Source of the DNA: Flavobacterium johnsoniae
GTDB lineage: Bacteria > Bacteroidota > Bacteroidia > Flavobacteriales > Flavobacteriaceae
Length of the DNA stretch: 64,000 nt
Direction of reading: 5' to 3'
Assembly (NCBI RefSeq): GCF_030388325.1
Contig: NZ_CP103794.1
Coordinates: forward strand, 4,030,001-4,094,000
The notes beneath the pieces are model-generated. The model saw nothing but the letters and a program-made list of their open reading frames with translations, was not told the origin of the DNA and did no database searches. Of the stretch, positions 1-12,603 are shown in pieces. Position 1 is the first letter of the stretch. Each line of letters begins with the position of its first letter. The position numbers were made by a program, and so were the translations under genes.

Positions 1-15
1 TAATTATATGTTTTT

Positions 16-240
16 ATGAATGCTGTATTGATATCTCTATGTGCATTAACGACATTTTCTTTATTTTTATCTTTTCGTTCGTTTAAGAAAGTTACAACAT
101 CATTAAATACTGTCCATAATATTGTAATATCAAAAATTTGTGCCATATTTTTATTTTCTATTTTAAGTTTGATGCTCTTTAATTATTACTCTAAAATTCG
201 CATACCTTTTACTGGTTTCTCGATATCCAAAGCCCTGTAG
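16..240 (+). CDS. Possible small membrane protein
   Basis: A 74-residue reading frame with two hydrophobic segments, at about residues 3-18 and 37-57, separated by a short basic stretch. An in-frame stop lies at bases 1-3, so it is not obviously the tail of a longer gene. It converges with the PIN_8 gene. I recognise no family. It may be a real small two-helix protein or a chance frame in AT-rich DNA; only its hydrophobic pattern supports it. Confidence 0.3.
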   Translation: MNAVLISLCALTTFSLFLSFRSFKKVTTSLNTVHNIVISKICAIFLFSILSLMLFNYYSKIRIPFTGFSISKAL

Positions 241-283: not shown

Positions 284-1564
284 TCATTTTTTTAAATAAT
301 TCTTCTTTATGATTTCATAATTGTCTAAAATTCTCATTCTTTTTAACTCCAATAATTTGAGTTCTTTAATAAGTTTTTCTTTTTCATCTTCTAGGCCAGC
401 CTCCAAATAACCTAAATTATGAGCGTATTCCCTTATATCATCTTTTGAATCACTCGTCTCATATAAATGATTTCGATATCTAGAAACCTTTTCATATTCA
501 CTATCATTAAAATCTATCTTTTCAATTACTGCATTTATATCATTTTCTACATGTTTAATATCTAAATTGAATTTTTCTGCAATATCGTAATCTCTGTATC
601 TTTGATAGTTTTCATCAATTAAGTTCTGAGCCTCTGTAATTGAGGTTTCTCTAATTTTATCATCTAATTCTTGTTTCGCATATTTTAAAAATGTGGATGT
701 ATTATAAATGTGAAATCTCTTTAATTTTTCACAATGATTATAGATTTCATTAAGTAATTCTTTTCTTGGCCCTAATTTTCTGCCTCTTTTTTCTTCCCAC
801 CAATCTTCTTTTACGTCACCAGTCACTAAAATAACATACTCATAATCAGTTTCTTTTGCAAATTTAATTATCTCTTTCCATAAATATAAATCTCCAAATC
901 TTCTTGTAAAAATTAAATCTTTATAAAAATGAGAACCTTCTTTTTTAATATCTTTATAACCTGGTGGAATATTATTTTTATATCTATTTTCTCCTTCCTT
1001 ATTTATAATATCAATCTCTTCTTTGGTGAATTCTTTTCCAATTTTATCTTTAAAAATATCAAGTAAAACATCTTTTATATTATCAATATTGTTTACGTCC
1101 AAATGTTCAGCTTCCGATTTTCTTAGATATTTTTTAAACTTCTTAAAAATTTTCAATGTATTCGTAAGTTCCCCATCATTAATATACTTAGAAGGATCAA
1201 TTTTGGAATGTCTTTGTGCTAGATTGAGTTTCTTAATTTCATCATGATAAGAATTATTAAGTTCAGTAATTTTACAGACATGTTCTTCGGTTAAATTCAT
1301 AACTTTAGAATACATACTTTTTTGTTCACCGATGATGTTTAACCTATTATTTAAAAATTCAAGTGCTACTTGAAAACCAATCCAAATTCTAGAATTGATA
1401 ATTGGATTTTGCAACACACCTAATAAATCATCTTTAGCTTGTAGAGGTAGTCTATACAAATCTAAAAGAACATTTGAATCAAAGATAAAAATACCTTTTT
1501 CCCAAATTTCCTTCACTTCATCTTCATTAATTTCTTTGTGTATTTTTTTTAAGTGTTCTATCAT
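284..1564 (-). CDS. PIN_8-type nuclease-like protein
   Basis: A 426-residue protein that looks like the 'PIN like domain' family (PIN_8, formerly DUF4935), a predicted metal-dependent ribonuclease fold. Acidic residues fit a PIN site: D29 and D35 in the FDSNVLLDLY motif, E69 in VALEF, D225 in FGDLYLW, and D250 and D254 in LVTGDVKEDWW. Residues 90-215 are a charged helical insert and the last 130 residues are mostly coiled coil. It lies downstream of the HigA-like gene on the same strand, 151 bases away, with a 21-base palindrome in that gap, so it may have its own regulated promoter. Members of this family occur in defence islands; the toxin or effector role here is inferred from context. Family assignment is fairly secure, function is not. 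Confidence 0.75.
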   Translation of the reverse strand: MIEHLKKIHKEINEDEVKEIWEKGIFIFDSNVLLDLYRLPLQAKDDLLGVLQNPIINSRIWIGFQVALEFLNNRLNIIGEQKSMYSKVMNLTEEHVCKITELNNSYHDEIKKLNLAQRHSKIDPSKYINDGELTNTLKIFKKFKKYLRKSEAEHLDVNNIDNIKDVLLDIFKDKIGKEFTKEEIDIINKEGENRYKNNIPPGYKDIKKEGSHFYKDLIFTRRFGDLYLWKEIIKFAKETDYEYVILVTGDVKEDWWEEKRGRKLGPRKELLNEIYNHCEKLKRFHIYNTSTFLKYAKQELDDKIRETSITEAQNLIDENYQRYRDYDIAEKFNLDIKHVENDINAVIEKIDFNDSEYEKVSRYRNHLYETSDSKDDIREYAHNLGYLEAGLEDEKEKLIKELKLLELKRMRILDNYEIIKKNYLKK

Positions 1565-1619
1565 TTGTTAATTGAGTATAAAGTAATTATAATTGCCATA
1601 GAATATTTTTCTAACATGC

Positions 1620-1640
1620 ATAAAATTCACTGAATTTTAT
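1620..1640. promoter_or_regulatory. 21-base palindrome upstream of the PIN_8 gene
   Basis: Two perfect 10-base arms, ATAAAATTCA and TGAATTTTAT, flank one central C. The site is 56 bases upstream of the PIN_8 start, in the only sizeable gap between consecutive genes of the operon-like cluster. Its size and symmetry suit a dimeric helix-turn-helix repressor, and the adjacent HigA-like protein is the obvious candidate. Binding is inference. Confidence 0.4.
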
Positions 1641-1715
1641 AAATCAGCTTCTTATATATGATAAAAAACATAGTAAATTGTATTCTGAATAAACTAATTT
1701 AATAAATCCTGATTT

Positions 1716-1970
1716 TCAACTATTTTTTCTCTCTTGTAAATCATATTTATCCTGTAAACGTAAAAATAAATCAGCAGTACCCCCAAATACAGTTTCTAAT
1801 TTTGAGGCTAAATCAGGAGATATTTTTGCGTGCCCATTTAAGACATTGTTAATATCTAGTAAACTATAATCTAACAATTTAGCAATTTTACTAACAGAAA
1901 GCTTTCTTCCTTCAACCAATTCCATTTTTAAAATTTCTCCTGGATGAACGTTTCTCATTTTTCTTTCCAT
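1716..1970 (-). CDS. HigA-like XRE antitoxin, no adjacent HigB
   Basis: An 84-residue single-domain helix-turn-helix protein of the HigA addiction-module family. The hallmarks are the NVHPGEIL start, the helix-turn-helix at about residues 24-50 with NGHAKISPDLA, and a final LFLRLQDKYDLQE matching the family's usual 'W/F-L-x-LQ-x-x-YDL' end. HigA proteins normally bind both the HigB toxin and DNA. The gene immediately upstream (5 bases) is an AAA+ ATPase rather than higB, and the next downstream gene is a PIN_8 nuclease. It may therefore act as an operon repressor or as the antidote to an unrelated partner. The family call is strong; the role is inferred. Confidence 0.8.
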   Translation of the reverse strand: MERKMRNVHPGEILKMELVEGRKLSVSKIAKLLDYSLLDINNVLNGHAKISPDLASKLETVFGGTADLFLRLQDKYDLQERKNS

Positions 1971-1975
1971 AATAT

Positions 1976-3145
1976 TTATAAATTTCGTGGCTTAACTAAA
2001 CATTCAACAAATGCGTTCTTTATACTTTTGTTTAAATCACGCATGTTTTTAAATTGACTAACATTAACTTTTTCAAGAATTTCTTCTTGAATGCTTTCCG
2101 GTAAACTTTTTTCAAAGTGTTTTTCAAATTTTTCAACTATCGATTTTATTCTAAAATCTACAAATTTTTGTTTATCGCGATGAAATAAAAGAGTAAAATA
2201 TCCTTTGTAATCAAAACGCGATCTTAACTCAGGAGAAATTATTTCAGTGAAATCTTGTTTACTAATATTAGAGGTAAAAATTATAATAAAGCCATTTAAG
2301 TCAATTTCTTCAGTTAAAGAACTTGACATTTTTCCATTTTCAAGAACGTCTAAAAAATAGTTAAAAAGTGTAGAATTAGATTTTTCAAACTCATCAATCA
2401 AAATTAAACCAATATCTGAGTTTTTAACACGTATAAATATTTCACCTTCCTCACTTCCGATATATCCTCTAGGACTTCCTATTAAGGAATTCAAAGAATT
2501 ATCACTACTATAATTACCAAAGTTGATTTTTGCTAATTTTCCTTTTCCTCCCAAACATCTATGAATTGCTCTAGCGACCTCAGTTTTACCAACACCAGAA
2601 TCACCCATTAAAAATAGAGACAAAATTTTATGTTCTCCAAGCTTATTAAATACTCTAAAATTTGTTATTAATTTATTAAAATCATCTTTAAATTTTTCGT
2701 GACCATATAATTCAGAAGAAAATGCTTTTAAAAAATCATAGACCTCTTCATTACTTAAATCGATAATTTTTCTATGTTCTAAAGGTTTAACAAATTTTAC
2801 TTCAGAAGCATCATTTACAATTATTCCTTCAACAACTTCTAAATCATTAAATTCATAAAAGCAAAATCTCAGTTCATATTCAAAAAGTTCTCTATGTTCT
2901 TTATCAGAAATAAAAATTATATTTTCGTCAAAAAAAGGAAAAAGACTTTCTGCGTTGTATTGTAAAGAATTGAGACCTGCAATTGAAGAAATGTCAATTA
3001 TCTGGCTATATTCATCTGCGTCATGCGCAAGCTCAAAATTACGCATGAAGTCAGTAACAGTTATTATTTTAAAACCTTCTTCTTCTTTACTTTTTTTATA
3101 ATAATCGAAATAGTTTTTATCGTAAAATAAAAGTTCTTGTATCAT
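1976..3145 (-). CDS. ClpB-type AAA+ ATPase with unique N-terminal region
   Basis: A 389-residue protein. Residues 1-150 match nothing I know. Residues 165-380 form an AAA+ module of the AAA_2/ClpA-ClpB second-domain type: Walker A GDSGVGKT at 181-188, a pore-loop-like GYIG at 227-230 within GSPRGYIGSEEGE, Walker B LILIDE at 247-252, sensor TSN at 291-293, and arginine-finger candidates R308 and R310 in SPELRSRFD. It has one ATPase ring domain and lacks the ClpB middle domain and first ring, so it is not a housekeeping disaggregase. It sits 5 bases from both neighbours in a tight operon. A remodelling or switch role in a defence module is inferred. Confidence 0.8.
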   Translation of the reverse strand: MIQELLFYDKNYFDYYKKSKEEEGFKIITVTDFMRNFELAHDADEYSQIIDISSIAGLNSLQYNAESLFPFFDENIIFISDKEHRELFEYELRFCFYEFNDLEVVEGIIVNDASEVKFVKPLEHRKIIDLSNEEVYDFLKAFSSELYGHEKFKDDFNKLITNFRVFNKLGEHKILSLFLMGDSGVGKTEVARAIHRCLGGKGKLAKINFGNYSSDNSLNSLIGSPRGYIGSEEGEIFIRVKNSDIGLILIDEFEKSNSTLFNYFLDVLENGKMSSSLTEEIDLNGFIIIFTSNISKQDFTEIISPELRSRFDYKGYFTLLFHRDKQKFVDFRIKSIVEKFEKHFEKSLPESIQEEILEKVNVSQFKNMRDLNKSIKNAFVECLVKPRNL

Positions 3146-3150
3146 TGTAA

Positions 3151-4005
3151 TTATTTAGGAAATGTCACATTCTGAACAATAGCTAATAAATCGATATAAT
3201 GAAACTCTTTATTACTTTGCGCAGTACTTGCAAACCAAAAATTATTGTTTGTTTCACTTTGATATTGGCTATCTTGAATCTCTTCATTAACTGGGCTATT
3301 CAAAAGATTTTGCATAGACCCTAGTTCTTGAAAAAACTCTAAAGAATTTTTTAACGCCTCAATCTTAATTTTTCCTTTGTACAGGCCAACTATCGAAACT
3401 TTTCCGATAAACAAATCATCTACACTATAAGAACTCTCGAATTCACTTTCGAAAGTAAGAGGTATTTTCACTAAAATAGCTTCTTCACTACCTTCTAACA
3501 TTCCCTTCATTTTATAAGCGTAATCTTTAAACATTGAATTAAAAAGATTGTTGATATCAAAACCATTTGCTCCTGGAACACTCATTCCTTTGAATGATCC
3601 GCTGGTAAATAGTTTTACAGTTCTTAATTCAGGCTCATTTTCGAGAGATAAAGTAACATTTTCAATTTTAACCAATTGACCTTCTTTTAGATTGTTAAAA
3701 TTATTTGTCCGTTCACTACGTTCTATTATCTCACTCAAAATGATAGATTTCGTAGTTTTTATTTCAAATGTTTCTAGAACTTTTTGTGAGTCAGATTTAG
3801 AATTTTTATGAGAAGCTTCGGCATTAATTCCAATACCAGTGTTGAAAAAATTTAAAAAATTAACTCCAAGTTTAGCTTTATAATCAATTTGTGTTTGATC
3901 AGCCGAATCTGTTTGTTTTTCACGATTCAACGTTATAACATTACTCAACATCATCTTGATTTCGTAAACTTTAGGGAAATTTATATAGTAAATGTTAAAT
4001 ATCAT
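3151..4005 (-). CDS. Unknown protein, possibly DUF6414-like
   Basis: A 284-residue soluble protein with no signal peptide or membrane segment. After a short N-terminal strand region (FNIYYINFPKVYEIKMML), residues 45-75 hold a glycine- and serine-rich LGVNFLNFF...GIGINAEAS stretch, then TFEIKTTKSIILSEII and an alternating strand pattern around LVKIENVTLSLENEPEL. This order recalls DUF6414 proteins, but from memory and without alignment, so it is a weak call. It starts 1 base after the upstream stop and ends 5 bases before the AAA+ gene, so translational coupling is likely and a shared function with the ATPase is plausible. Confidence 0.6.
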   Translation of the reverse strand: MIFNIYYINFPKVYEIKMMLSNVITLNREKQTDSADQTQIDYKAKLGVNFLNFFNTGIGINAEASHKNSKSDSQKVLETFEIKTTKSIILSEIIERSERTNNFNNLKEGQLVKIENVTLSLENEPELRTVKLFTSGSFKGMSVPGANGFDINNLFNSMFKDYAYKMKGMLEGSEEAILVKIPLTFESEFESSYSVDDLFIGKVSIVGLYKGKIKIEALKNSLEFFQELGSMQNLLNSPVNEEIQDSQYQSETNNNFWFASTAQSNKEFHYIDLLAIVQNVTFPK

Positions 4006-4006
4006 A

Positions 4007-4825
4007 TTAAATTATTTTATTTGAAAATTCCTTACATATCATTCCTAACCTATTTATTAGTTCATTGCTAACCATACTCAATTGATTAGTATGTATTAAC
4101 AATCTTGTAGGTTTTTCTAAATTATCAAAATGAATATTAATATATTCGTTTTGCAGTCGCTCTGAATATTTTTGGGAGAGGTCTTCATTAAAGTTAATTT
4201 GGAAAACATTTTCCAAATCAATTTTAAAATCTCTCACATAATGTCCCACAGCAAGAATTATGATAGGAAAATCTCTAAAGAAATTAGAATTAAATAATTC
4301 TTTTCGAAGTTCAATACTAGCTGCTCTTTTATTCTTTGGAACATCTTTACTGTAACTTCCTGTTTCCTGATTTAATTCTGAACAAAAAGATAGTTCATGA
4401 AAATTAATGAACTCGCTCGGAACACCGTTAAAGTAAATCGAATCAATAATTTTTTGGTAATTATACCATGTCTTGCTAGTACCACAATGACCACTGATGA
4501 TTTTACCACTTTTATCTCTTCTTTCTACTTTATTGATTTGTCCTTTATAAGGATATAAACTATTAAATATTGGTTTTCTATCTTTTATAAACCAATTATC
4601 TACATCATTAAGTTGTTTATTTGTACTGCAATTTAGATTCCAGTCAATAGTATTTTTAGAATATTCTTCTTCATATTGACCTGCTGATTTTTCTTTATCA
4701 ATAGCAGCTTCCTTACCTATAAATAGAATTTTTGAATTTGGATTACCTGAACCTATAAATAATCTCTTATTTTTTGCTAGCTGAATTACTTCCTTAAAAT
4801 TAGAATTATAAACTACTTCGTTCAT
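4007..4825 (-). CDS. Uracil-DNA-glycosylase-fold-like protein
   Basis: A 272-residue protein with features of the uracil-DNA glycosylase superfamily. The N-terminal GNPNSKILFIGKEAA (about residues 27-41) sits where the family has its 'P-x-x-xILxVGxxP' strand and catalytic loop, and the C-terminal LLIHTNQLSM (about residues 243-252) resembles the HPSxxS DNA-intercalation loop. Between them IIILAVGHYVRD matches the central strand. The usual catalytic Asp or Asn motif is replaced by GKEAAID, so the activity may be altered or lost. Its start overlaps the preceding coiled-coil gene by 4 bases (ATGA). It could be a base-modification sensor or nuclease in a defence context; the fold call is moderate and the function unknown. 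Confidence 0.6.
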   Translation of the reverse strand: MNEVVYNSNFKEVIQLAKNKRLFIGSGNPNSKILFIGKEAAIDKEKSAGQYEEEYSKNTIDWNLNCSTNKQLNDVDNWFIKDRKPIFNSLYPYKGQINKVERRDKSGKIISGHCGTSKTWYNYQKIIDSIYFNGVPSEFINFHELSFCSELNQETGSYSKDVPKNKRAASIELRKELFNSNFFRDFPIIILAVGHYVRDFKIDLENVFQINFNEDLSQKYSERLQNEYINIHFDNLEKPTRLLIHTNQLSMVSNELINRLGMICKEFSNKII

Positions 4826-5037
4826 TTTTTCAAATTTGAAATTTTTTCTTTCTCTTTTTTAATTTGGTATTTCAATGTATCTATCTTCTCCTTAGCACTT
4901 TTTCTATAATGAGCTTGTGTCTTGTTGACATTATTTTTCTTTATAGTTTCAATTTGCTTTTGAAAATTTTCTATTCGCTTTTTACAATTCTCTATTTCTA
5001 ACTTAGAATCTGATGAAAATAATGAAAATAATCCCAT
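4822..5037 (-). CDS. Small coiled-coil protein, first gene of operon
   Basis: A 71-residue protein. The start MGLFSLFSSDSK is followed from residue 14 to the end by charged heptad-like helix rich in K, E, I and L, with no other domain. It overlaps the downstream UDG-like gene by 4 bases, which supports it being translated. It may be an oligomerisation or scaffold subunit. MGLFS-type starts are common in small Bacteroidota membrane-edge proteins, but no clear membrane segment is present. Confidence 0.55.
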   Translation of the reverse strand: MGLFSLFSSDSKLEIENCKKRIENFQKQIETIKKNNVNKTQAHYRKSAKEKIDTLKYQIKKEKEKISNLKK

Positions 5038-5345
5038 GTTATTTTTGTTTTACTTTTTAATATTTTTCACTTTACTATCTGTTATTTTAAATAACATCAA
5101 TTAATAATTTTTCATTGCTGTTTTTATAAATTTAATTACTGAAAGAAATTCCTATCAATTTAATACTCACAAAAGCTCTCAAACAAAAGTTATAAATCTT
5201 TCTTTATAAAAATTAGAAATGCTAAATATATTTAATATAAACTTAAGCAAAGTACGGAAAACCGTAATATCATTAAAAATATTATTCTTTTAGTTTCTTT
5301 TAATATGCTTTGATTAACAATAATTTATTTGAAAAGAAAATTAAT
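5038..5345. other. Gene-free gap upstream of the operon
   Basis: A 308-base AT-rich stretch between the operon's first gene and the frameshifted gene. It holds the 17-base palindrome at 5080-5096 and a short hairpin TACGG-AAAA-CCGTA at 5253-5266. I found no convincing TAnnTTTG promoter on the minus strand and no plausible reading frame. Confidence 0.5.
5080..5096. promoter_or_regulatory. 17-base palindrome, candidate operator
   Basis: Perfect arms TGTTATTT and AAATAACA flank one central T, 43 bases upstream of the first gene of the defence-like operon. Position and symmetry suit repressor binding, for example by the HigA-like protein of the same operon. It does not share a clear core with the palindrome at 1620-1640, so one protein may not bind both. 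Confidence 0.35.
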
Positions 5346-5761
5346 TTATACAAAGTCGAAAATAACTTTCTCAAGTTCCACATTTAAAAAAGTTTCATAC
5401 AAACAATCATAACTAAAATCAGTCAAATATTCATCTTCGATCTCCTCTTCATATTCAGCAGTAAATTTAACCAATACAAAAGATGAAAATATAAATTGAT
5501 ATTCCATTCTAAAGCGTTCGTAGTCTTCCGCTAAACTTAAATAGATTGTTTTCAAAGATTTTAGATTAAGTTCTCCATTATTTTTTTCCAGGTTACATAA
5601 AGTTAGAAAATCAATACAATGTCTTATGAACTCTAATGAAGTAAAAAACCTAAACCACGATTAGTTTTCCATTCAGGAAAAGACATATCCATAAAATGAA
5701 TTATTTCTGTAAACAATTCTGTTTCTGAATGTTCATTCATCAAATCATAATACTCCATCAT
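5346..5761 (-). pseudogene. Frameshifted hypothetical gene
   Basis: Two same-strand reading frames join at a run of six T on the minus strand (bases 5643-5648). The first half begins with ATG at 5761 and reads MMEYYDLMNEHSETELF and on to GLGF before hitting a stop just past the run. The second half reads on without a start codon of its own as FTSLEFIRHCIDFL, ending FDFV at 5346. One extra T would give a single acidic protein of about 139 residues. The frame from 5555 alone would need a TTG start. This could be a true inactivating mutation, slippage-dependent expression or a sequencing error. I recognise no family. Confidence 0.55.
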
Positions 5762-5791
5762 AAAAAAATATTAAATAGATAATTTTATTAA

Positions 5792-5935
5792 TTAATAAAT
5801 TAAGAAGTATACTTTTATAATATTATAAAAGTATACTTCTTCTGAAAAATTAAACATATTAAAAATTGAATTATTGATTTCTAACGCAGTCTTCAATTTT
5901 AGTGTAGAGCTTTCTCCTTTTCGTTTATAATCCAT
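5792..5935 (-). CDS. Possible 47-residue small protein
   Basis: An ATG-started frame beginning MDYKRKGESSTLKLKTALEI and ending FLIY. Its second half is encoded by the 40-bp palindrome at 5802-5841, which makes the tail look incidental. The N-terminal half is basic and could form a helix. Support is only length and start codon. The rest of the 5762-6085 gap (to base 6085) shows a small TGTG-TAAA-CACA dyad near 6045 and nothing else I can name. Confidence 0.2.
   Translation of the reverse strand: MDYKRKGESSTLKLKTALEINNSIFNMFNFSEEVYFYNIIKVYFLIY
5802..5841. repeat. 40-bp perfect palindrome without a loop
   Basis: Each arm is 20 bases. The left arm is AAGAAGTATACTTTTATAAT and the right arm is its exact reverse complement, with the centre between 5821 and 5822. 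Each arm also contains the smaller palindrome AAGTATACTT. It lies 41 bases upstream of the frameshifted gene at 5761. With no spacer it is a poor Rho-independent terminator and better fits tandem operator half-sites or a cruciform. Its role is unknown. Confidence 0.7.
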
Positions 5936-6085
5936 ATTTTTTTCTTTAAATTAGAAATACGACTTTGGAGTATTTCTTTCCCGATAGGGCGAGATGGTTG
6001 TCCATATAAGAAACTCAAAATCGTAGATTTTTGGTTTTGACATATGTGTAAACACACCTTGCTAAATGAATAAGTAATTATTTTT

Positions 6086-6931
6086 TTATTCCCCTTTGGT
6101 TAACCATTCATTTAAATCTTTATGGTTTTTATACAACTTTCTAAGATCTAAAGAGCCAGGAAATTGCTCCAAAATTATAATAGTATATTTATCTCCCGTT
6201 TGATCATTATCCAAGTACAATTCTATCTTTTCATACTTTTCTAAAAGAGCTATCTTTTTTACTAATAGAGCTGTAGAATTTAAAATCAAATAATCGGATT
6301 GCTCCAGATTTTTACTATGCCTAATTTGGACAAATGATAAGTAATCGAAAAAACCTTCAAAAATCCGTAGTGTTTGAGATTGGTTTGAAATTAGACTGAC
6401 ATCCTTTTTACCAATACATAATTTAGCATACTTAGATCTGATTTCAAAACCACCACTTTTATTTTCAAAACCGATTGCAAAATATTTTTTATCATTGACG
6501 ATATAATGAACTTCTTTCAGATTGTTTTCTTTTTCAAACTTTAAAATATTCCTGCTTGTCAAATATTGAATTAGAGCCAAATGTCGAATTTCAATTACTT
6601 TTTCAATTTTGATATTACTTTCTAAATTTACTGGAGGTTCAAAAATTTGCTTTTGAAAAGAAAAAAAAGTGTCGAACTTCTCAAGATAACTTAAAGCTTC
6701 TGAAACGCTAAAACCAAATTTGAATATTACAAAATCAATCGCATTTCCACCTTTTTGTTCGCCATGATCAAAGAAGCGATTTAGAGTTCTGCTTAGTTTA
6801 AAAGAAGCGGTTTTTTCGACTCTAAAAGGAGACAAATACCAACTTTCATTTTCATTTGATTTTATCGGTTCGTATCCTAAATTTTCAAGTATTTTTTCTA
6901 TCGAAATTTCTCTTGCTTGGGTCGAATTCAT
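6086..6931 (-). CDS. Toprim primase of mobile element
   Basis: A 281-residue DnaG-like primase as found on plasmids and small integrative elements. Residues 1-85 form a degenerate CHC2-type domain (WYLSPFRVEKTASF, then FFDHGEQKGGNAIDFV) that lacks the zinc-binding Cys and His. Residues 185-280 form the Toprim domain with E192 in FEGFFDYLS and D241/D243 in YLDNDQTG. I start at 6931 because AGGAAAA lies 7 bases upstream and because a start further upstream (7030) would run the coding sequence through the iteron repeats. With the helicase gene it should provide replication initiation for the element. Confidence 0.85.
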   Translation of the reverse strand: MNSTQAREISIEKILENLGYEPIKSNENESWYLSPFRVEKTASFKLSRTLNRFFDHGEQKGGNAIDFVIFKFGFSVSEALSYLEKFDTFFSFQKQIFEPPVNLESNIKIEKVIEIRHLALIQYLTSRNILKFEKENNLKEVHYIVNDKKYFAIGFENKSGGFEIRSKYAKLCIGKKDVSLISNQSQTLRIFEGFFDYLSFVQIRHSKNLEQSDYLILNSTALLVKKIALLEKYEKIELYLDNDQTGDKYTIIILEQFPGSLDLRKLYKNHKDLNEWLTKGE

Positions 6932-6969
6932 GTGTTTTCCTGTTTTAGGTTTAAAAAAGTTAAAAAAAA

Positions 6970-7172
6970 TGATGATTTGATGACAATATGCTCTAAAGCT
7001 AATACTGGTAAGAGCTGAGGCTGTCATCAAAATGTCATCAAATCATCAAAATTTGCTACTTTTTTTATCTGTCATCATTTTCTTGTCATCATTTTTATTT
7101 TTGATGATAAAATGATGACAGCTTTAAGTCTTATAAATAAAGGGCTGAACTTATACTGTCATCAAATCATCA
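6970..7172. repeat. Iteron-like TGTCATCA repeats, candidate replication origin
   Basis: The 16-mer TGTCATCAAATCATCA occurs at 7033-7048 and 7157-7172 and as its reverse complement at 6970-6985. The core TGTCATCA occurs also at 7022, 7070 and 7084, and inverted at 7113-7120. That makes at least seven copies in about 200 bases, between the helicase and primase genes, with the last copy overlapping the helicase stop codon. The intervening DNA is very AT-rich, as expected for an unwinding element. Iterons beside replication genes usually bind the initiator. An origin function is inferred from arrangement. Confidence 0.7.
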
Positions 7173-8358
7173 TTTTTTCGACCAAAAAATTTTTTAAAAT
7201 AACATAATGTCTTCCTTTAGCTTGATTTTGATAAATATCCAGGTCATTTGTGACTGTGATTTTTTGATATTTATTAGAGTTTGGAGAAGGGGATAATTTC
7301 CAATTTTCTCGTATGATTTTTTTTATTTCAATAGCATCATATTTTACCTTAAACTTATTTAAAATATTAAGTAAATCGGAGATGCTAAATTCTAATATTT
7401 CAATATCGATACTTTCCATTACGTTCAATAAGGTACTGGCTATTTCATGCTCAATCTTACTTGATTTGTGAAGCACCAACTTTTCCAAAGCTTTAGTTTT
7501 AATTTGTTTTGGAGTAAACCACATTCGAGATTGATTTTCCGTTGATAAATTTCTATTGTTTAGAAAATGTAAAAATGCCGGAATTTCTTCAATTAGTTTT
7601 TTCAATAGATCAACATCTTCTTTTTTGTAACGATTTACTTTAATTATCCAAAATCGAATTTCATCAGCATCAATTTTGATGAATGAAGTTTCATTATTGG
7701 AACATAAGATGAATTTTCCAAAAAAAGGAGCTTCCTTTTTATCCTTTCCTTTGGCTTCAGTCTTATGTGTATTACTCGTAGAAAGGTATTTTATACGTTC
7801 TGTAAGTTCGTCTGTTTTAAATAAAACTTCATCAATAAGAATCAATAATTTTGAACTCCAGTCTGAATTAAAGTTTGATGTAAAATCACTATTAGTTAAG
7901 AAAGTTGCATTATATTCAAAAATCTCTTTTAACCATTTTGGAAAAGTTGATTTTCCTGTAGATCTTTCTTTACTCACTAAGCACAGAATCGGTAAAATTT
8001 GCGTCGGTTTTAAATAAATCAATTGTAGATAATCAATCCCTAACTCTAGCTGATCTCCAAAAATATGAGTTAAAAATAAAAGTGTATTTGAAATATCTCC
8101 TTCTTTTGGAGACTTGCTTATTTGATGATAGGTATTATAATAATCCTGAACTCTTTTTTTAAAGAATTCAGGTCGGTTTTCAGGAATACAAATAAATCCA
8201 TCAAACCTCTCAATTTCTGAAAGTGCATTTTTGCCATGGTCTTGTCTAATCAATTCTGCTGACCAAACAACCAAAATCTCTATAAAATCTCCTGAAGGTA
8301 AAGGGTATAGAGATTTCTTAAAATAGGTAGTTCCTATTCTTAAATACATGTTTTTCAT
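7162..8358 (-). CDS. SF3-type helicase, DUF5906 family
   Basis: A 398-residue protein of the primase-helicase type used by phages, plasmids and satellites. The helicase core has a Walker A KERSTGKST at about 130-138, Walker B LLILIDE at 171-177 and the SF3 motif C FILCSNN at 216-222. The N-terminal 110 residues are unrecognised, and residues 290-398 look like a winged-helix region. It has no primase domain; that function is on the adjacent Toprim gene. A terminator-like hairpin lies upstream at 8411-8456, suggesting transcription independent of the xis-like gene. Expected job: unwinding at the neighbouring iterons. Confidence 0.8.
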   Translation of the reverse strand: MKNMYLRIGTTYFKKSLYPLPSGDFIEILVVWSAELIRQDHGKNALSEIERFDGFICIPENRPEFFKKRVQDYYNTYHQISKSPKEGDISNTLLFLTHIFGDQLELGIDYLQLIYLKPTQILPILCLVSKERSTGKSTFPKWLKEIFEYNATFLTNSDFTSNFNSDWSSKLLILIDEVLFKTDELTERIKYLSTSNTHKTEAKGKDKKEAPFFGKFILCSNNETSFIKIDADEIRFWIIKVNRYKKEDVDLLKKLIEEIPAFLHFLNNRNLSTENQSRMWFTPKQIKTKALEKLVLHKSSKIEHEIASTLLNVMESIDIEILEFSISDLLNILNKFKVKYDAIEIKKIIRENWKLSPSPNSNKYQKITVTNDLDIYQNQAKGRHYVILKNFLVEKMMI

Positions 8359-8821: not shown

Positions 8822-9808
8822 TTATAATTTTTCAAAAATTGATTTAATTAATTCTAAATCTTTTGTTTTTATAATACTCTTGGAAACAGATGTATATATT
8901 GAATTGGCTTTTATTCTTCCATTTTTATTTTGAATGTTTCCCGAAAGCTCAATAAATGTGAGAGGGATTTTAATACTTAAAAATTGATTAAGGCATTCAA
9001 TGAAGTACTTAAACTGAAGGTTATCCATTTGAAGATATATAACAGAATTATGTTCTTTCCAACCCAATTTTAAAACATCAATAAATTCAGTTAATGAAGT
9101 TTTAGTTTGATCTATATACATGAATTTTTCCAAACCGAAATATAGTTTTCTTAAAATTTCATTATCTGTAGTTATGGTATAATTTTCATTATTGGAAATA
9201 GATCCAGATAAGCCAGAAATTTTACCCTGAATTTCATCATATAATTTTAAAAGATCTTTTTCGTAATCTTCTAAAGCTGTAATTATATCCGCAAAAAAAG
9301 AGACCGTTAAGTCATTATGATGATTTTCTTCTTTTTGAAGATGATTCAGAAAGTAATACTTTATTGTATCTACTTTTTGATATATGTGTTCAAGGATTTT
9401 ATCTGATAGAACTAAAAGCTTAGTTATAAGAGTTTCTTTTGGATATTCTTTTGTCGTTAAGTAATATTCTACTAAATATTTTAGATCTTTTTTAGAATTA
9501 AAAACAACATAAAAACCAGTAATGGGAATGTGTACGAAATCTTTATCATAATCCTGAAATGGCAAATAATCATCTTCATTAATAATTGTTTCCTGACTTT
9601 TAAAAAATAAGCTGATCGTATCAATAGATAAATGCTTAATCGGATGATGATACATTAATTCACTAAGCAAATGAAAAAATTGAAATTCGTTTAGCTTTTT
9701 TATTTTCTTCCCAATTGATAAACTTTTTTCCTGAGAGTTTAAGTTATCTTTTATGAAATCTAAAGTTTTATGATGCTTGTTTTTGATTCTAAAATAAGAA
9801 TATACCAT
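8822..9808 (-). CDS. Unrecognised mobile-element protein
   Basis: A 328-residue soluble, mostly helical protein with no signal peptide. The region at about 235-300 is the most structured-looking (MYIDQTKTSLTEFIDVLKLGW, then VIYLQMDNLQFKYFIECL). It ends 14 bases beyond nothing but the terminator hairpin, and it starts 3 bases from the integrase stop, so the two are almost certainly co-transcribed. Its place next to integrase recalls RteC in Bacteroides elements, but I cannot see the RteC motif pattern, so I leave it unnamed. A role in excision control or replication is a guess from position. Confidence 0.65.
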   Translation of the reverse strand: MVYSYFRIKNKHHKTLDFIKDNLNSQEKSLSIGKKIKKLNEFQFFHLLSELMYHHPIKHLSIDTISLFFKSQETIINEDDYLPFQDYDKDFVHIPITGFYVVFNSKKDLKYLVEYYLTTKEYPKETLITKLLVLSDKILEHIYQKVDTIKYYFLNHLQKEENHHNDLTVSFFADIITALEDYEKDLLKLYDEIQGKISGLSGSISNNENYTITTDNEILRKLYFGLEKFMYIDQTKTSLTEFIDVLKLGWKEHNSVIYLQMDNLQFKYFIECLNQFLSIKIPLTFIELSGNIQNKNGRIKANSIYTSVSKSIIKTKDLELIKSIFEKL

Positions 9809-9811
9809 AAA

Positions 9812-10939
9812 CTAAATATTAATGTTAGGAATTAAGTTAGCAGCCTCTTTCATCTTAGAATCAATGATTTTAGCATAAATTTCTGTTGTTTTTAATTCCT
9901 TGTGACCTAAGCGTTTTGAAACGGTATAAATGTCAGCGCCATTTTCTAATAGCAAAACCGCATTTGTATGTCTGGCACTATGAAATGTAATGTGTTTTGT
10001 TATACCCGCTTTCATACACCACCTTAATATTTCAGCATTAAAATGAGCTCCATATTTTAATCCCTTAAAAACCCTTTCGGTTTGATTTTCTCTTTCTCCA
10101 AGCAGACTTCTTGCTTCTTTAGAGATATATAAATATTCAACACTTTCTGTTTTTTCTTGTCTAAAGTTAACTCTGCTGACTTCGCCCTCGTCTCTTACTT
10201 CACTCCAAACCAAAGTATTGATATCAGACCATCTCAAACCCACTAAACAAGAAAAAATAAATGCTCTTTTCAAAACATCATATTTACAATGAGCTTTGTT
10301 CATTGCTACTAACTCATCGTAGGTTAAATATTCTCGTTGGCTTTCTCCTTGTTCAAATCCCCTTACTTTTTTGACAGGGTTAATTGTAAGATAACCATCC
10401 TCAAATGCTGCACGTATGGCTGCTTTGAATTTATTATAATATGAATACTTAGAATTTTGGGACAAAGGAAGATCACTTTTAGTTCTTGCATCTTTATCCA
10501 GGTAGTTACGATAGGATTTTACAAAATCTTCATCTATCTCATTGAAAGTGACATTTGGATTACAGAATCGTTTTAAATGTAGAAATGAAGCCGTCCAGTT
10601 ACCATAATTCTTAGCAGAATCAATTCGATCTTCAGCCTGATTGCTGTAGTATTCCAAAAATAGTGTTTTAGATTTGGAATTGTTTTTTATATCAAATTTC
10701 CCTTGAAAATATTCAGCTTTTCTGATCGATAGTATCTGCTCAGCTAATACCTCAATTTCTTTATTTTCTTTCTTTTCAGTAGCAGTCTTAGGTTCTTGAT
10801 GAGGATATAATTTTAAATACTCGAAATCTCTTAAATGTACACGCTTTCCGTCTGCGTTAACAGTTGAACCTTTGTAATATTCAAGATATAAACTATACCT
10901 ACCATTTTGTAGTTTTTTCTTCTTCAGACTAATTACCAT
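9812..10939 (-). CDS. Tyrosine recombinase (integrase)
   Basis: A 375-residue phage-type integrase with the Bacteroidota layout: an arm-binding N-terminus (residues 1-90), a SAM-like core-binding domain (90-195) and a catalytic domain (200-375). Catalytic residues are R236 in LVGLRWSDI, a candidate K263, H320 and R323 in HSARHT, H346 in GHKELKTTEIY and nucleophile Y355. I choose the start at 10939 (MVISLKKKK) since the basic strand-rich arm domain begins there; a start at 10993 would add 18 residues crossing the TGTACA repeats. It lies 149 bases from the 3' end of mnmE, which is presumably the integration site. Confidence 0.9.
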   Translation of the reverse strand: MVISLKKKKLQNGRYSLYLEYYKGSTVNADGKRVHLRDFEYLKLYPHQEPKTATEKKENKEIEVLAEQILSIRKAEYFQGKFDIKNNSKSKTLFLEYYSNQAEDRIDSAKNYGNWTASFLHLKRFCNPNVTFNEIDEDFVKSYRNYLDKDARTKSDLPLSQNSKYSYYNKFKAAIRAAFEDGYLTINPVKKVRGFEQGESQREYLTYDELVAMNKAHCKYDVLKRAFIFSCLVGLRWSDINTLVWSEVRDEGEVSRVNFRQEKTESVEYLYISKEARSLLGERENQTERVFKGLKYGAHFNAEILRWCMKAGITKHITFHSARHTNAVLLLENGADIYTVSKRLGHKELKTTEIYAKIIDSKMKEAANLIPNINI

Positions 10940-10943
10940 AAGA

Positions 10944-11000
10944 TGTACATTTTTACACCCTATTTTTACAAAGGTGTACATTGAGTGTAACAAATGTACA
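10944..11000. promoter_or_regulatory. Three TGTACA boxes upstream of integrase
   Basis: TGTACA occurs at 10944-10949, 10975-10980 and 10995-11000, just ahead of the integrase start. CAAATGTA at 10991-10998 reads as a TAnnTTTG -10-like element on the minus strand, though no TTG is found at the usual distance. The boxes could be arm-type integrase sites or operators for autoregulation. Confidence 0.35.
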
Positions 11001-11088: not shown

Positions 11089-12489
11089 TTATTTCCCGAT
11101 GCAAAAGTTGGCAAATATATTCCCCAGCAATTCGTCGTTAGAAACTTGACCAGTGATAAGCCCGAATTGATATAAAGCCTCACGAATATCAAGCGCCATT
11201 AAATCACTTGAAAGTCCAGATTCTAAGCCGAATTTTACTTTCTGAATTTCATCTAAAGCTTTTAATAAAGAATCATAATGTCTTGTATTCGTAACAATTG
11301 TTTCGTTATTACGAAGCGCTCCTGTATTTACAAAAGACAATAATTCATTTTTTAAATCCTCTACTCCAATTTTTTCTTTCGCAGAAATTAAAAGCAATTT
11401 TGCATTTAAATTTTCTAACCTACTCTTAATATTCTGAACTTCATCAGCCGATAAAATATCTTTTTTATTGACAACAATCAGTAAAGGTTTGAGAGGATAT
11501 TTATTTTTTATTTGTTCGATTTCTGAAACAAAATCAGAACTAGAAGCTTGAAATTTCAATCCGTCAAATAAATAAATTACTACTTGCGCTTGTTCTATTT
11601 TTTCGAAAGTTTTTTTAATTCCAATGCTTTCTACAACATCTTTTGTATCACGAATTCCGGCGGTATCAATAAATCTGAATCCGATTCCGCCAATAACTAA
11701 TTCATCTTCAATTGTATCACGAGTTGTTCCCGCAATATCAGAAACAATTGCACGCTCTTCGTTTAATAAAGCATTTAAAAGTGTCGATTTTCCAACATTT
11801 GGTTCACCGACAATCGCAACCGGAATTCCATTTTTGATGACATTTCCAACTGCAAATGAATCAATTAAACGTTTTAAAACAAATTCGATTCGGTTTAATA
11901 ATTCATGAAATTGTGTTCGATCAGCAAATTCCACATCTTCCTCAGCAAAATCTAATTCTAATTCAATTAAAGAAGCAAAATTTAAAAGTTCTTCTCTAAG
12001 TTTTGCAATTTCATTACTAAATCCGCCTCGCATTTGCTGCATCGCAATTTGATGAGAAGCTTCATTATCAGACGAAATCAAATCGGCAACTGCTTCTGCC
12101 TGAGACAAATCTAATTTTCCGTTTAAGAAAGCGCGAAGCGTAAATTCTCCCGCATCTGCCATTCTACAGCCTTTCCTTAACAATAATTGAATAATTTGCT
12201 GTTGAATATAAGTTGATCCGTGGCATGAAATTTCAATCGTATTTTCTCCTGTATAGGAGTTTGGACCTTTAAAAACCGAAACTAAAACTTCATCAAGAGT
12301 TTTATTTCCGTCAAAAATATGTCCTAAGTGTAAAGTATGCGTTTTCTGTTTTGTTAAATCTTTATCTTTAATAGATTTAAAAACCGAATTACCAATTGTA
12401 ATAGCTTCAGCTCCAGAAATTCGAATTATGGCGATAGCTCCAGCGCCCGAAGGTGTAGCCAAAGCAACTATAGAATCTTGATTTATCAT
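11089..12489 (-). CDS. mnmE: tRNA modification GTPase MnmE
   Basis: A 466-residue protein of normal length and organisation. It forms the cmnm5 group on wobble uridine 34 of tRNAs together with MnmG. The N-terminal tetrahydrofolate-binding domain starts MINQDSIVALATPSGAGAI. The inserted G domain shows GEPNVGKST, GTTRDT, DTAG and NKKD. The protein ends in the diagnostic FCIGK with its catalytic Cys. I use the start at 12489; an ATG at 12504 would add five atypical residues and would lie upstream of the TACCTTTG -7-like element (12501-12494). The integrative element abuts its 3' end without damaging the C-terminus. Confidence 0.97.
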   Translation of the reverse strand: MINQDSIVALATPSGAGAIAIIRISGAEAITIGNSVFKSIKDKDLTKQKTHTLHLGHIFDGNKTLDEVLVSVFKGPNSYTGENTIEISCHGSTYIQQQIIQLLLRKGCRMADAGEFTLRAFLNGKLDLSQAEAVADLISSDNEASHQIAMQQMRGGFSNEIAKLREELLNFASLIELELDFAEEDVEFADRTQFHELLNRIEFVLKRLIDSFAVGNVIKNGIPVAIVGEPNVGKSTLLNALLNEERAIVSDIAGTTRDTIEDELVIGGIGFRFIDTAGIRDTKDVVESIGIKKTFEKIEQAQVVIYLFDGLKFQASSSDFVSEIEQIKNKYPLKPLLIVVNKKDILSADEVQNIKSRLENLNAKLLLISAKEKIGVEDLKNELLSFVNTGALRNNETIVTNTRHYDSLLKALDEIQKVKFGLESGLSSDLMALDIREALYQFGLITGQVSNDELLGNIFANFCIGK

Positions 12490-12603
12490 GCGGCAAAGGT
12501 ACAAAAAAAGCCCAAAATCATTTCAAAGAACAAAAATCAAAATTTCCACGAAAATGGACATATTAACAAATTATTAAGTGTTAAAATACTGATAATTATC
12601 AGG

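Follow-up and report, generated by a model that had tools for sequence, protein, structure and literature searches.

Six tightly packed genes beside mnmE in Flavobacterium johnsoniae as probable mosaic defence cargo of an integrase-bearing element

Does a tightly packed run of genes with defence-like members form one defence system, or several that share a carrier? The question is raised by six minus-strand genes at positions 284 to 5037 of a 64,000-nucleotide stretch of Flavobacterium johnsoniae (assembly GCF_030388325.1, contig NZ_CP103794.1, positions 4,030,001 to 4,094,000), the whole of which is referred to here as the window. An earlier note on this DNA proposed one coordinated system, in which a UDG-like or an unknown protein senses invading DNA, an AAA+ ATPase serves as the switch and a PIN_8 nuclease acts under the control of a HigA-like protein. 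The run is instead best explained, with a probability of about three in four, as the mosaic defence cargo of an integrase-bearing element beside mnmE, made up of three or more modules, each mobile in its own right. As a system it is ordinary; as a lead it is useful, both for its mosaic around a Dodola-type core and for a family of UDG-fold proteins.

The six genes and their company elsewhere

Read from 5037 down to 284, the run comprises a small coiled-coil-like open reading frame (ORF) of 71 residues (4822..5037), a UDG-superfamily-fold protein of 272 residues (4007..4825), a 284-residue protein in the DolA position (3151..4005), a ClpB-type AAA+ ATPase of 389 residues (1976..3145), an 84-residue helix-turn-helix (HTH) protein like HigA-family antitoxins (1716..1970) and a PIN_8 nuclease-like protein of 426 residues (284..1564). 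The earlier note had placed all six ORFs correctly. The successive spacings are -4, 1, 5, 5 and 151 bases, the coiled-coil-like ORF overlapping the start of the UDG-like gene by 4 bases. Every ORF is open, the Walker and PIN motifs are intact, and the G+C content of the six genes (23.6-29.4%) is lower than that of window positions 12620-64000 (33.7%). The genes are probably read as one transcript; a simple scan with a Bacteroidetes-type promoter motif found no complete match anywhere in the element, only partial ones within genes.

Co-occurrence was scanned with phmmer (E 1e-2) over all ORFs of at least 40 residues. Loci of the first set, other than the window's own, spanned approximately 2-4 kb, with wider stretches for six places in five of seven genomes. 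Searches for the 284-residue protein, called A here, covered 395 genomes of the order, 395 of the phylum and 204 of the genus, in sets that overlap. The protein was found in four of the order genomes (the window's own counted), two of the phylum genomes (both known already) and two of the genus genomes (one of them new). The four other genomes that carry A with the ATPase, called B here, were opened over 15.5 kb each (L041, L042, L043, L132), and all four plasmid records with an A gene, out of 72,556, were opened as well. A and B are adjacent in each of these eight loci (10.6-15.5 kb each), and relatives of the UDG-like, coiled-coil, HigA and PIN_8 proteins occur in none of them.

The same separation is seen from the side of the other genes. 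The pair, HigA, PIN_8 and the coiled coil are missing from all 26 other UDG-like loci, six of which (L023, L024, L026, L031, L035 and L049) are shortened by contig ends and partly unseen on one side; the partial matches L035 and L036 were omitted from the neighbourhood listing (18/20) but scanned for co-occurrence. Near PIN_8 relatives, at nine loci of eight other genomes, the other five genes are absent from a flank of 1.5 kb. Two genomes, G231 and G343, hold the pair and a PIN_8 relative on one contig, at distances of approximately 2.3 and 2.1 Mb, the PIN_8 match of G231 being weak (2.2e-6). The 71-residue protein has no relative in 54 scanned loci and falls into no Pfam or NCBIfam family at curated cut-offs.

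Because these genes separate in other genomes, a single six-gene system is rejected. The earlier note had itself counted a failure of the six to keep together as a refutation, and the search for conserved co-occurrence that it suggested finds the six families apart. For its two regulatory proposals, HigA control of the nuclease and a UDG-like protein feeding the ATPase, no evidence was found; tight spacing alone leaves both possible. The defence setting that it proposed is borne out. A false new system is struck off, and a Flavobacterium-type Dodola relative in its natural setting remains. Each module would act alone or within its own pair.

The Dodola-type pair

The first module is the pair of A and B. 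The A protein, an unknown in the earlier note, is known to PADLOC as PDC-M37A (model PDLC04602, E 3.3e-111, residues 1-282). The ATPase, encoded 5 bases after the A gene, matches the PADLOC models PDC-M37B (PDLC04606, E 1.2e-152) and DolB (PDLC03838, E 2.1e-29, residues 123-385). It also matches Pfam AAA_2 (E 1.7e-21), in agreement with the earlier ClpB-type assignment, and carries a Walker A motif (GDSGVGKT, from residue 181), a Walker B-like ILIDEF and the motif SRF. As judged from these matches, the two proteins are an already described candidate defence pair. Both fit the A and B models of PDC-M37 nearly full length; the neighbouring genes fall outside that candidate, and the pair itself shows no difference from it. 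In the other loci, PADLOC was applied to chosen neighbour proteins.

The arrangement also resembles Dodola, in that a DolA-position protein is followed by an adjacent ClpB-type AAA+ protein that matches DolB. In contrast to Dodola, the A protein of the window gives no match to the PADLOC DolA model at E 1, and four extra genes are packed around the pair. Among three plasmid relatives of A that were scanned, one, from Halobacillus (L061), matches DolA weakly (6.4e-6); this protein aligns with the A family of the window in hhalign (E 5.6e-33, probability 99.9). According to excerpts, from which all papers are cited here, a survey of the Bacillus cereus group contains one case in which Dodola and PDC-M37 are assigned to the same proteins (PMC11811056). 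Dodola from Streptococcus is reported to protect against every streptococcal phage that was tried, its mechanism being given as unknown, and to confer no resistance on one vector (PMC12322248).

At E 1e-3 or better, A has 963 matches among database proteins, itself counted, and the nearest relatives of its gene (P0122-P0144) share 84-93% identity. Its AlphaFold2 (AF2) model is poor, with a mean predicted local distance difference test score (pLDDT) of 50.4. The ATPase most likely works as a hexamer that unfolds or remodels proteins, and A probably senses or presents a signal of infection; together they would stop phage growth.

In the window, all the genes are on one strand at very tight spacing (-4, 1, 5, 5 bases), and the UDG-like gene immediately precedes the pair. 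This arrangement would suit an extended Dodola-type system peculiar to this lineage, with the UDG-fold protein and its coiled coil as a DNA-sensing subunit feeding A and B, HigA as the repressor and PIN_8 as an extra effector. Such an extension is unlikely, as none of these genes occurs in the eight other pair loci and the UDG-like gene elsewhere adjoins type I restriction and Gabija genes. The mosaic of separate modules is the preferred explanation, with the pair as one of them.

Several small observations concern relatives of the pair. The PDC-M37A model also matches one of 14 control genomes, that of Methanocaldococcus jannaschii, and relatives of A may reach archaea. In L132 (G904), a same-strand gene of 749 residues with an ATPase-like P-loop, recognised by eye, follows the pair (3742-5991). 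A small gene with a weak HTH match lies just upstream of the pair in L041 (8125-8532), and a small gene that appears HTH-like by eye is convergent with the pair in L043 (5521-5913).

The UDG-fold protein and the PIN_8 nuclease

The second module is the 272-residue protein, which has a UDG-superfamily fold by predicted structure, together with the small coiled-coil-like gene that overlaps its start. No Pfam or NCBIfam family matches it at E 1, and no UDG is among its matches to PDB sequences at E 10, yet the predicted structure agrees with the UDG-like call of the earlier note; it is not a recognised housekeeping UDG. The motifs GKE-A-I and HTNQLS are invariant across 26 aligned sequences. In five loci (L017, L018, L019, L021, L022) the gene adjoins type I restriction genes, and in another 17 bases separate it from a Gabija pair downstream (GajA, GajB; L044, G266:C22, 7527-12387). 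A family that recurs beside unrelated defence systems constitutes a second lead. Two of the loci opened, L021 and L102, belong to one contig of Myroides indicus, on which the UDG-like gene is approximately 20 kb from an integrase at the side of mnmE. The protein has no match in plasmid records.

Brig1 and Brig3 are UDG-superfamily proteins that defend by base excision; Brig3 belongs to a two-gene operon and inserts an Asn into the DNA helix (PMC11078745, PMC13160076). The window protein shares the superfamily and a defence-island setting with them, and its HTNQLS motif has an invariant Asn, which is a candidate for a Brig3-like insertion into the helix. It differs from the Brig proteins in its first motif, which reads GKEAA, a comparison made by description and not against a Brig sequence. 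Its neighbours set it apart as well: the Dodola-type pair here, and Gabija or restriction systems elsewhere. By analogy with the Brig glycosylases, the most likely role of the UDG-fold protein is to bind, or to cut out, a base of invading DNA that is modified or odd, and it would thereby back up whatever DNA-targeting system carries it.

It is tentatively suggested, as a conjecture with the odds against it, that this protein founds an unnamed family of Bacteroidota defence glycosylases. Such enzymes would serve as an add-on to type I restriction, Gabija or the Dodola-type pair and destroy the genomes of phages that evade the main system through modified bases. If the family does excise modified bases, glycosylases would be a general back-up to restriction. 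No published account of the UDG-like family or of the element family was found among open-licence papers, most of the matches being judged by their listing; the excerpted legend of the DefensePredictor study includes, among predicted and unvalidated systems, a UDG that could be related (PMC13092281). In three loci of Prevotella type, a protein of 171-172 residues is encoded directly upstream of the UDG-like gene (L028, 8433-8948; L029, 8419-8937; L031, 2020-2535). It contains a GNPNAKIL-like or GNPDAKIL stretch, gave no Pfam match in the one case scanned and is possibly a second, shorter UDG-like protein.

The third module is the PIN_8 protein, which matches PF18476 over the complete profile (1-227 of 227, E 1.1e-52) and contains the motifs FDSN (with D29), ALEF and TGDV. 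Its upstream neighbour exceeds the cut-off of the HigA family NCBIfam TIGR02607 (72.2 bits against 47.7). Both identifications uphold those of the earlier note. A classical HigBA toxin-antitoxin system is rejected, as HigA has no HigB toxin beside it: it is flanked by the DolB-like ATPase and PIN_8, and no other minus-strand ORF of at least 50 residues lies between. As an orphan, HigA most likely represses the operon.

The position of HigA directly upstream of PIN_8, with no HigB-like ORF present, could also reflect a toxin-antitoxin pair of a new kind, with the PIN_8 nuclease replacing HigB as the toxin that HigA neutralises. This is very improbable in view of the 151-base gap between the two genes and the company that PIN_8 relatives keep. 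PIN_8 matches occur in nine of 395 order genomes, the window's own counted; of the eight others, one has a split gene and two have weak matches (1.4e-8, 2.2e-6), and this HigA has no match within 1.5 kb of the PIN_8 relatives in these genomes. Sixty plasmid records also match, and in the one that was opened a SIR2 gene and a type II restriction-modification pair lie close to the PIN-like gene. No antitoxin is annotated beside it there, and a ‘transcriptional regulator’ follows approximately 460 bases on. Furthermore, a single-protein PIN system without antitoxin, DS-3, has been shown to defend, according to the excerpted report (PMC13092281). The PIN_8 protein resembles DS-3 in being a PIN nuclease that stands by itself, with no antitoxin, a likeness drawn by description only. 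As a module of the mosaic cargo, it is probably a lone RNase effector that stays inactive until infection.

The element and the mnmE site

The cargo shares its strand with a set of element genes that ends at a host gene (11089..12504, minus strand), which is recognised from its translated ORF as mnmE (trmE) and has a DNA match in all eight relatives compared. Between the cargo and this gene sits a tyrosine integrase (9812..10993, minus strand; Pfam Phage_integrase 2.5e-19, Phage_int_SAM_5, Arm-DNA-bind_5). On the right, the element ends at the 3′ end of mnmE. DNA similarity to mnmE ends at 11089-11090 in 8/8 relatives, which the end of the gene alone could explain, and one copy of an exact 16-bp direct repeat (11089..11104) coincides with the mnmE stop codon. 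The left end is probably the other copy, 13,031 bp away in the stretch L003 (14058-14073), which reaches left beyond the window. By rough arithmetic, approximately 0.001 chance matches of 16 bp are expected in the stretches compared, and more in A+T-rich DNA.

Three further minus-strand genes lie between the integrase and the cargo: one for a protein of the element core of 328 residues (8822..9808; relatives in L094, L096 and L097), one for a DUF5906/VapE-like core protein (7162..8358; DUF5906 5.8e-20, with a relative of 45% identity in L096) and one for a primase-like core protein with Zn_ribbon_DnaG and Toprim_2 domains (6086..7030; Toprim_2 4e-14; relatives in L094, L096 and L102). Next to the cargo is a broken gene (5352..5761, minus strand) that is whole in L094 (137 residues); tblastn against L094 places its pieces in frames -1 and -2 with 64 and 77% identity (E 1.8e-43). 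This one broken backbone gene would fit a decaying operon on a relic element with no role in defence. That reading is the least probable of those considered, given that the six cargo ORFs are open with their Walker and PIN motifs in place, that matches to a defence candidate reach E 1e-110 or better for two of the proteins and that related integrases are found near known defence systems.

On the left, the gene run extends past the window with two more minus-strand genes between PIN_8 and the left repeat. One, of 124 residues, is partly in the window (1..146; whole gene L003 15772-16146), and the other has 450 residues (L003 14272-15624). Neither reaches a Pfam cut-off or matches a PADLOC model.

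Genomic islands such as SGI1 are described, in an excerpt, as inserting at the 3′ end of trmE (mnmE) (PMC8409611). The present element uses the same end of the same target gene, but belongs to another phylum and has primase-like and DUF5906 core genes; the two are likened by description only. An origin from phage is rejected, as the ATPase, the UDG-like protein, the integrase and A have no confirmed relative on viral contigs, some of the single-protein queries reaching close relatives only. In phage records, A and the UDG-like protein have no relatives.

The integrase finds a match at 1e-60 in 74 of 199 genomes of the genus. Eleven places were opened: the window's own aside, the nine with the highest similarity, together with two of approximately 49% identity. 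In all eleven, which were thus chosen by integrase similarity, the integrase is beside mnmE, with one small ORF between them in L103 and L104, and the six cargo genes are absent from all these stretches. Different defence genes take their place in the neighbourhood: PADLOC analysis of 12 proteins from six of the loci found other defence genes in five, namely type IIG restriction (L094, L097), type I restriction (L099, L102) and Cas12a with Cas1 (L096). The single protein scanned from L104 had no PADLOC match. Of eight other relatives, six carry another integrase after mnmE, and therefore the 3′ end of this gene looks like an integration hotspot. It is marked in this group as a settling place for integrases with different defence neighbours.

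A number of points weigh against the mosaic-cargo explanation. Loose cargo would not need spacing as close as that of the first five genes (-4 to 5 bases), and a local functional link among these genes is possible. The surroundings of the pair elsewhere are known from eight loci only, P0122-P0144 being mostly on unopened contigs, and the missing DolA match of A counts here as well. We infer that the defence genes near the related integrases lie inside those elements, whose far ends were not located. The genes that follow mnmE in the integrase-free relatives L127 and L129 are absent from positions 3,994,001-4,094,000 of the window genome.

The left flank poses a further difficulty. In G755 it is present at 89% identity up to 37 bases before the repeat, and a shorter stretch of it is found in five more relatives. 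In none of the six do the fetched stretches include mnmE: the two are 0.94 Mb apart in G780 and 0.81 Mb apart in G794, and they lie on different contigs in G755, G158, G746 and G791. Either a later rearrangement joined the left flank to mnmE, or the element really ends somewhere other than at the left repeat. The separation of the left flank from mnmE in these relatives lowers confidence in the explanation from 0.80 to 0.77.

Relatives provided no empty mnmE site. In the eleven related loci, a search for the repeat with at most two substitutions gave a single occurrence beyond the mnmE ends, inside an ORF of L103, which was not counted; in L095, L100 and L104 the mnmE end itself has no such match. 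Lastly, in L096 (G838:C153, 11329-17054) the Cas12a and Cas1 genes identified by PADLOC beside the related integrase are accompanied by small genes that, by eye, occupy the positions of Cas4 and Cas2, and are followed by a repeat-rich stretch that resembles a CRISPR array.

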